Of a stretch of DNA of 6,904 nucleotides, positions 1,960 through 6,904 are shown piece after piece. The notes under the pieces are model-generated. The model saw nothing but the letters and a program-made list of their open reading frames with translations. It was not told the origin of the DNA and made no database searches. The stretch's first letter is position 1. Each line of letters starts with the position of its first letter. The position numbers were made by a program, and so were the translations under genes. The DNA is from an uncultured Nitrosomonadales bacterium (GTDB lineage: Bacteria; Pseudomonadota; Gammaproteobacteria; Burkholderiales; Gallionellaceae), in assembly GCA_903934275.1 (NCBI GenBank), contig CAIZNF010000669.1, positions 1-6,904 on the forward strand, written 5' to 3'.

Positions 1960-2027
1960 CTCCCAACCTCCCCTTGTCATGGGAGGAGCAGCGGCATACT
2001 CCTCCCATGACAAGGGGAGGTTGGGAG
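1960..2027. repeat. Perfect 29-bp inverted repeat between hisE and hinT
   Basis: The left arm at 1960-1988 (beginning CTCCCAACCTCCCC) is exactly reverse-complementary to the right arm at 1999-2027 (ending GGGGAGGTTGGGAG), around a 10-base loop CAGCGGCATA at 1989-1998. No mismatch was found over 29 pairs. The hairpin starts five bases after the hisE stop codon, and no T-run follows on the minus strand, so it is not a textbook rho-independent terminator. Its shape and C-rich sequence suggest a dispersed palindromic repeat. In mRNA it could slow or stop transcription, or protect the upstream his message from 3' decay, and so separate his from hinT-tat expression; that role is inference. Confidence 0.93.
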
Positions 2028-4289: not shown

Positions 4290-5063
4290 TTAAGGATTCC
4301 ATTGCATAAAGTTTTGCAGCAGCTTCAGCCCTGCTGATTGGCTTTTTTCCGGGTGAAATTGCACCCCGAATAAATTGTCTCGTGCTACCGCGCATACAAA
4401 AGGCTGCGGATAGTCGCTGGTAGCTTGTACCAGTGAGGCATCCTGCGGTTGCACATAATAGCTGTGCACGAAGTAGAAGCGCGCGTCCTGATCTATGCCG
4501 TTCCACAGAGGGTGAACTCCAACCACCCCCCTCCCCGACCCTCCCTCGGAGGGATAACCAACGACTTGGACATCGTCTTTTGACGGCCTAGTCGAATGGC
4601 TAATGGTTTTATCAGAGGGAGCAACTGTCGCACCCCCGTGCGGGAATGCGGATTGTTCAATTCTCCGCACCTGATTCCAACCCATGTGCGGTACTTTGAG
4701 CTTGCTGCCTTGCGCGTCGTGCTGACTGCTGGTGAAGCGCAATACTTCGCCGCGCAAAATGCCCAAGCCTGCCGTCTCGCCCTCGGCGCTGTGCTCAAAC
4801 AGCATTTGCAGGCCGATGCAAATGCCGAGAAAGGGTTTGCTGTGTGCTGCTTCCAGCACAGTTTTGCGCAAGCCGCGCATATCCAGTTCACGCATGCAAT
4901 CCGGCATCGCGCCCTGCCCGGGAAATACCACGCGCGTGGCATTCGCAATGACTTCGGCATTGTCGCTGACCGCAATTTCAGCATCAGGGCATACCTTGCG
5001 CAAGGCCTGTTCGACCGAGCGCAAGTTTCCCATTCCATAATCTACAACGGCGACATCGACCAT
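4290..5063 (-). CDS. hisH: Imidazole glycerol phosphate synthase, glutamine amidotransferase subunit, with an extra internal segment
   Basis: HisH releases ammonia from glutamine and passes it to HisF. The class I amidotransferase triad is visible: C82 in FLGICIGLQ, and H237 and E239 in [24 protein letters not shown] at the N-terminus, [13 protein letters not shown] near residue 45 and VPHMGWNQV at 124-132 are typical. The protein is 257 residues, against about 200-215 for the family. The excess is one block of about 47 residues (roughly 137-183) between [10 protein letters not shown] and [21 protein letters not shown]; both flanks are well conserved, the frame is kept and no stop appears. 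In known HisH structures this part is a loop after the GWN strand, so function may be retained, but that is inference. The ATG is six bases after the hisB stop, without a clear ribosome site. Confidence 0.95.
4515..4655. repeat. Palindromic element inserted in frame within hisH
   Basis: This stretch codes for the residues that HisH relatives lack. From 4541 to 4621 its DNA is a nested, imperfect palindrome: CTCCCTC (4541-4547) pairs with GAGGGAG (4615-4621), ATAACCA (4554-4560) with TGGTTTTAT (4604-4612, two extra bases), and CGACTTGG (4562-4569) with CCTAGTCG (4587-4594, one mismatch). A small hairpin CCCTCC-ctc-GGAGGG lies at 4539-4553 and another, CGCAC-cccc-GTGCG, at 4629-4642. The C-rich edge CCCCTCCCCGACCCTCCC (4528-4545) resembles the start of the repeat at 1957-1973. 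The exact ends are set by protein comparison from memory and may be off by several bases; no target duplication was recognised. Confidence 0.75.
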
Positions 5064-6831: not shown

Positions 6832-6904
6832 AACTCAGCGAGCGCAGTCTGTAATCTGCCTCCAACGCAGGGCAATCGCATCAAATTTCCCCGAAACCAA
6901 GCAA

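Follow-up and report, generated by a model that had tools for sequence, protein, structure and literature searches.

The whole stretch of 6,904 nucleotides analysed here (the window; contig CAIZNF010000669.1 of assembly GCA_903934275.1, an uncultured member of the Gallionellaceae) carries on its minus strand a 257-codon ORF (4290..5063) for hisH, the glutaminase subunit of imidazole glycerol phosphate synthase, whose product matches the HisH equivalog TIGR01855 with 209.6 bits against a cut-off of 105.4. The original prediction had placed the excess length of this HisH in a single block, and alignment with relatives, most of which lack it, confined the excess to codons 133-183 (4515..4667, minus strand), ending before HPLW; the reading frame is uninterrupted on both sides, the ORF being open through all 257 codons. 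The spacing between KVPHMGWN and FYxVHS is 65 residues in the window HisH. The catalytic residues C82, H237 and E239, which we take to be the glutaminase triad, are kept, as had been claimed, and form invariant columns in a 56-row HisH alignment. An AlphaFold model (56 sequences; mean pLDDT 86.0, pTM 0.82) gave pLDDT values below 50 for residues 139-180, and its best PDB match was the HisH of V. cholerae (4gud; TM 0.92 by target length). Because of this pLDDT pattern and the match to 4gud, the block is predicted to be a disordered loop hanging off an otherwise normal, confident HisH fold.

Elsewhere in the window, between two ORFs that from their translations are presumably hinT-like and hisE-like, lies a REP-like element (1960..2027) in the form of an inverted repeat with perfect 29-nt arms and a 10-nt loop, without the core unit described below; a repeat resembling it does contain the core and lies within metG, elsewhere in the genome (L103). 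The last bases of the window (6882-6904) recur, by eye, in other stretches of the same genome (the end of L141 and the start of L142), so the contig probably breaks in a repeat.

Nested architecture of the block

The nested inverted repeats reported for the hisH DNA (CTCCCTC/GAGGGAG and others) are present. Their interpretation as one palindromic element at 4515-4655 was correct as to a mobile palindrome but not as to its unity, as there are two nested elements and only 4527-4624 recurs in the genome. A search of the window's own genome (G000) with the block (query 4505-4665) gave 43 matches including the window itself, so that further copies of this DNA do exist; those elsewhere in the genome fall in query positions 42-144, nearly all in 42-139 (i.e., 4527-4624), with an identity of up to 90%, and for the first 41 nt of the query (4625-4665) no second copy was found in that genome. 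The recurring stretch (4527..4624, minus strand) consists of an outer REP (4527-4553 and 4614-4624) that is split by a core unit of 60 nt (4554..4613, minus strand; codons 151-170), a bulged hairpin whose extent is given by the 60-nt match, a covariance model, a gap in a related hisH and covariation. The hisH core scores 79.5 bits with the covariance model (R1) and encodes 20 residues in the translated ORF. Directly 5' of it on the minus strand is a CT dinucleotide (4614..4615), identified from the sequence and from the rule found across copies (see below). Upstream of the REP there is a short hairpin-like stretch (4629..4650, minus strand; position from the sequence), which varies between species and which the window's own minimum-energy fold pairs partly otherwise. 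We are all but certain that hisH holds a nested insertion of a multi-copy element, a 60-nt unit within an older REP-type palindrome.

Folded alone, the block was moderately better than shuffled sequence (sense-strand RNA: z -2.42, 3 of 200 shuffles as good; antisense RNA: z -1.94, 7 of 200; DNA: z -1.81, 11 of 200). Covariation across copies is stronger proof of the hairpin than this folding of the block alone. Among 40 distinct copies, 95.7% of the cells of the core hairpin were paired (89.6% in shuffles), 46 cells showed double-sided changes (13.7 in shuffles) and the covariation score was 0.253 (0.129 shuffled); none of 500 shuffles was as high on any of these three, and 5 and 4 of 500 were on the two remaining measures, counts that are not probabilities because the copies are related. 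The signal was lost when the pairing partners were slid. At pair 15-59, 38 of the 40 copies have G.T when read on the hisH-sense strand and would have C.A on the other, which suggests that the hisH-sense strand is the one recognised. The loop and the bulge are well conserved across copies. Rfam 15 gave no match at the gathering score in the window and none at E<=5 in 4515-4655.

Copy number, boundaries and landing sites

The 60-nt query found 41 matches in the window's genome (40 candidates scored) and the covariance model at least 66; the model search scored about 67 candidates per genome, so its counts are a lower bound in copy-rich genomes. When copies were aligned, the 60-nt core was common to them and the flanks differed. 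From 187 HMM hits in the loci used, 107 distinct full-length copies remained after partial and duplicate hits had been dropped. CT precedes 100 of the 107 (at an offset from the profile start of 0 bases in 76 copies, one base in 23 and two in 1) and is missing from 7; with the four CT offsets tried, roughly a quarter of the copies would follow CT by chance. Measured from the CT, 87 of the 100 CT-following copies are exactly 60 nt long. The base 3' of the core is C or G in 93%, and the right junction reads ...TTAT and not a second CT. By eye, the core has GATRAAAC or GGGTGAAAC at one end and GGTTAT at the other. The GATRAAAC and GGGTGAAAC forms are two subtypes, told apart by a single base at the 5' end and another in the loop; both therefore keep a length of 60 nt, with different reading frames after the loop. 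A 47-nt version (model 13-59) was found at several places; at two of them (L311 and L313; G027:C2 77553-77718 and 155978-156143) it lies inverted and about 60 nt from a full core within the same longer repeat.

The boundaries stay constant while the host repeats differ: a CCCTCTCCC-type REP, a AATCTGTGTAATCTGCG repeat, and the CCTGAGC and TTCCTGCCTTCGCC types (named by eye). Once the core is removed, the joined flanks (e.g., CCCTTCGACAAGCT joined to CAGGGCGAACGG in L283, and ATTCCTGCCT to TCGCCGGAAT in L280) match a repeat elsewhere among the loci compared at 81 of 100 sites against 96 of 294 CT controls, a count that is favoured because part of the loci were fetched with the outer repeat in the query, and for which controls dropped matches of >=99.9% identity and sites required a match in another locus. 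The joined flanks also fold better than the CT controls (median z -0.93 vs. -0.16, p 3e-6).

Compared by eye with known motifs, a hammerhead ribozyme and an integron attC site were set aside, their fold and junctions seeming not to fit, and so were IS110 bridge-RNA ends (the right junction is without CT, and PF01548, though matched in 8 of 13 genomes, is lacking in two copy-rich ones).

The hisH loop among relatives

HisH was found in 71 of the 76 genomes of the genus, and 70 loci were read. The spacing between KVPHMGWN and FYxVHS is 18-22 residues in 57 of these and 36-65 in the other 13; in none of the 70 was the hisH frame split. By eye, most of the 13 long inserts contain REP-type DNA. Alignment of the window's hisH (L191) with that of G010 (L202) leaves a clean 60-nt gap inside the REP. 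In G038 (L192) the core lies on the opposite strand within the hisH repeat, in a 54-nt version, and the matching empty site is found in G016 (L199). No target duplication was seen at these two pairs, the two that were aligned. Empty REPs occur at the same place of hisH in L202, L197 and L199, and a diverged one in L208/L001. In G010, where the hisH REP is empty, a 54-nt copy of the core (L202 357-410, 55 bits) is located about 1 kb away from hisH. A different palindrome sits at the same loop in G029 (L262), and the loop has taken up several different palindromes depending on the species (L191-L195, L197, L199, L202, L205, L208, L244, L262, L267). Immediately upstream of the REP, the insert-bearing hisH copies have differing sequences, which often look hairpin-like.

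A quick HisH tree computed without the loop requires 13 changes to account for the 13 inserts, 3 of them being made necessary by well-supported branches (30 of the 66 inner branches are weak). The nearest relative of the window on this tree, G017, has no insert; neither this nor the search for further copies gave the outcome that would have refuted the original reading. That all 13 inserts were separate gains was rejected, since L191, L192, L199 and L208 have related DNA upstream of the REP; these flanks indicate that loss or exchange between species probably happened as well.

In-frame copies in other genes

With a minimum of 300 nt required on each side, there were 123 distinct places, at which 30 ORF candidates span the core; the 28 ORFs behind them were scanned with Pfam and ten also with NCBIfam. 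The core lies in frame within family-matched ORFs at 20 of the 123 places (18 ORFs), and in 17 of the 18 the family matches flank it on both sides, the exception being an N6_N4 methylase ORF. The hosts are MutS, UvrC, Mfd, RecJ, MetG, CysS, HisH of two species, ThiL (twice), SucB, an NAD(P)H-hydrate dehydratase, a Mur ligase, an FAD-linked oxidase, a Methyltransf_28 protein, an MFS transporter, an MmeI-like methylase (twice), an HsdR-like protein and the N6_N4 methylase ORF. Besides hisH, fifteen conserved genes of the window's genome and its relatives contain the core in frame. Seven further core-spanning ORFs had no Pfam family match, and three candidates (CoaE, L282; MiaA, L185; DUF559, L164) were dropped from the in-gene count as their matched domain begins only downstream of the core. 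At 18 of the 20 in-frame places the reading is in sense, and in RecJ and the HisH of G038 it is antisense. By eye, several in-frame cores lie within an apparent REP-encoded peptide (between PLPSPL and PQGEGWGEG, or between AVRP and ELVEG). In the thiL of L177, a single reading frame runs through two cores, which belong to different subtypes. The unit is compatible with genes by its own length and open frames; the length of 60 nt is equally common outside the matched genes (69 of 80), so no selection for coding or for the peptide is demonstrated.

Distribution

At E<=1e-5 the core was detected in 140 of 158 genomes of the family, in 14 of its 15 genera. It was found in none of 32 genomes from other families of the order (E<=0.001), and, with one copy each (83, 76, 45 and 44 bits), in 4 of a sample of 368 further genomes of the class; the filters of all these searches were strict, at the cost of weak matches. 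The four single copies (L365-L368) come from four other families; three of them directly follow CT and, by eye, three lie in CCCTC-type repeats. Such copies outside the family hint at rare horizontal spread.

Transposase genes and strand bias

Y1_Tnp genes are present in 63 of the 76 genus genomes. No copy of the core was seen in the 24 Y1 loci that were read, which comprise all 5 of the window's genome and 19 others, and there was no Y1_Tnp match in copy-rich genomes such as G040, G022, G046 and G048 (28, at least 71, at least 74 and 29 core matches, respectively), of which G040 is a single contig of 99% completeness and G022 and G046 are 83% complete. A bias towards one replication strand, as expected of single-strand transposition, was weak (18 of 24 full-length copies in G040, p 0.023; 16 of 29 in G027, p 0.71; pooled 34 of 53, p 0.053). 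Insertion 3' of a short fixed target without duplication, as seen at the two hisH sites, is a trait of IS200/IS605-like elements or TnpAREP, and the target duplication typical of a MITE of a DDE transposon was not found at the two aligned hisH pairs.

Discussion

The original reading of the block as a mobile palindromic repeat in a predicted protein loop is borne out by the many copies, the precise boundaries, the empty sites and the in-frame copies in conserved genes. The explanation that we regard as the likely one overall is that of a mobile 60-nt hairpin that lies after CT in an older REP, moved in trans on single-stranded DNA and is tolerated in HisH. A REP-type palindrome would first settle in frame in the HisH loop that is predicted to be disordered, and the REP, once folded, would serve as a landing site with cleavage after CT, by analogy with TnpAREP (HUH/Y1). 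The unit may travel as single-stranded hairpin DNA, a CT-cleaving single-strand transposase acting on it in trans, and would be translated as 20 extra residues that HisH is predicted to tolerate. Its persistence in genes would be helped by its length of 60 nt, by open frames that fit the reading frame of the REP and by REP-encoded loops that are already tolerated. Translation and tolerance of the unit in HisH seem quite probable.

Insertion at CT, the absence of target duplication at two sites, the bulged hairpin and the REP targets make the unit resemble the TnpAREP system. In view of the missing GTAG, the negative results for Y1 loci and genomes and the weak strand bias, only a single-strand CT-cleaving enzyme acting in trans is proposed, and its assignment to the Y1/HUH type, by analogy, is tentative.

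Other explanations share part of the evidence. The unit might be no new family but a common REP mobilised by a RAYT of its own (a REPtron), which would agree with the long bulged hairpin, the CT site and the frequency of Y1_Tnp genes in the genus; this is unlikely, given that by eye the GTAG/CGTC tag stands at neither end of the core, that no copy lies in the Y1 loci read and that several copy-rich genomes have no Y1_Tnp match. IS110 types such as IS621 target REPs with a CT core. An element of this type, guided by RNA to REPs, might have left the unit as a miniature copy, and PF01548 was indeed matched in 8 of the 13 genomes tested; a second CT is missing from the right junction, however, and the copy-rich G040 and G048 have no PF01548 match, so that we hold this origin to be quite improbable. 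PMC1525189 describes IS elements that insert into REPs, which fits such an origin and makes REPs landing sites as they are for the core, but these are full IS that carry a transposase, and the core, with its 60 nt, has no gene.

A further alternative is that entry of the unit into REPs was rare and that recombination between repeats then spread it, for the most part together with its host REP. Several copies do have the same outer repeat over about 100 nt, but the constant boundaries across many kinds of repeat, and the two orientations found in related hisH REPs of two species, speak against this, and overall we find it improbable. A structured regulatory or catalytic RNA kept for its function, with only apparent mobility, would explain the covarying hairpin and the conserved loop and bulge; the lack of an Rfam match and the occurrence of the unit in unrelated genes and repeats, and in both orientations in hisH, leave it very improbable. 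Local expansion of the HisH loop without mobile DNA would be in line with long inserts at this loop in 13 of 70 relatives and with the first 41 nt of the block query, which have no second copy in the genome. It is already contradicted, and to us hardly conceivable, as dozens of unrelated places carry the remainder of the block, which shows covariation and has clean empty sites.

The best-known protein-coding palindromes are those of Rickettsia. A multi-copy palindrome within one genome that also lies in frame in unrelated conserved genes, as the core does, has the traits of such elements. PMC10969869 and PMC2229807 describe the Rickettsia palindromic elements (RPEs) as palindromes in frame in genes, and the likeness extends to many copies, both intergenic and in many unrelated conserved genes; their length is given there as 105-146 or about 150 bp, compared with 60 nt for the core, which differs further by its other host family, its position after CT and its nesting in a second protein-coding palindrome family. 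Going by these descriptions of RPEs, the unit seems to form a family apart, with a sequence and a CT target of its own.

Outside Rickettsia, PMC3733652 reports in-frame GTAG/CGTC REPs that add 20-30 residues, frequently to DNA repair proteins but to tRNA synthetases as well, some of these REPs lying within other palindromes; for this reason, the betaproteobacterial setting, which the original prediction called notable, is less exceptional by itself than claimed. The unit shares with the REPs described there the in-frame position, the repair and tRNA synthetase genes and the palindrome within a palindrome, but it is without the GTAG/CGTC tag and nests in a range of different repeats. TnpAREP cleaves at CT 5' or 3' of REPs according to PMC8266576, and with the TnpAREP/RAYT REPtrons of that paper the unit has in common the bulged hairpin, the CT beside the element and the REP context; it departs from them in lacking GTAG, in having no linked transposase that we could find and in occurring in some copy-rich genomes without a Y1 match. 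In the open-licence literature, judged by titles and the beginnings of abstracts, we found no publication on the 60-nt unit, Gallionella palindromes included. What is new here is the unit itself, the CT rule, the use of many repeats and the nesting in REPs that already encode protein.

The broadest view of these data, which we put forward with the scales evenly balanced, is that the 60-nt hairpin is a parasite of REPs: a minimal mobile unit that would address many REP families, be cut after CT and enter proteins through tolerated REP-encoded loops, giving a two-tier traffic of palindromes across a whole family (probably the Gallionellaceae), driven by an enzyme not yet known for such hairpins. 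With its sharp ends, empty sites and many copies, the unit lends itself to direct tests of which enzyme moves it and of what it costs the protein. The in-frame outcome of palindromes is extended to another bacterial family, including MutS, UvrC, Mfd, RecJ, MetG and CysS, and the element probably adds short stretches, predicted to be disordered, to proteins that would in all likelihood still work. The nesting suggests one route by which this may come about, in which a first repeat makes a loop safe and a second repeat exploits it.
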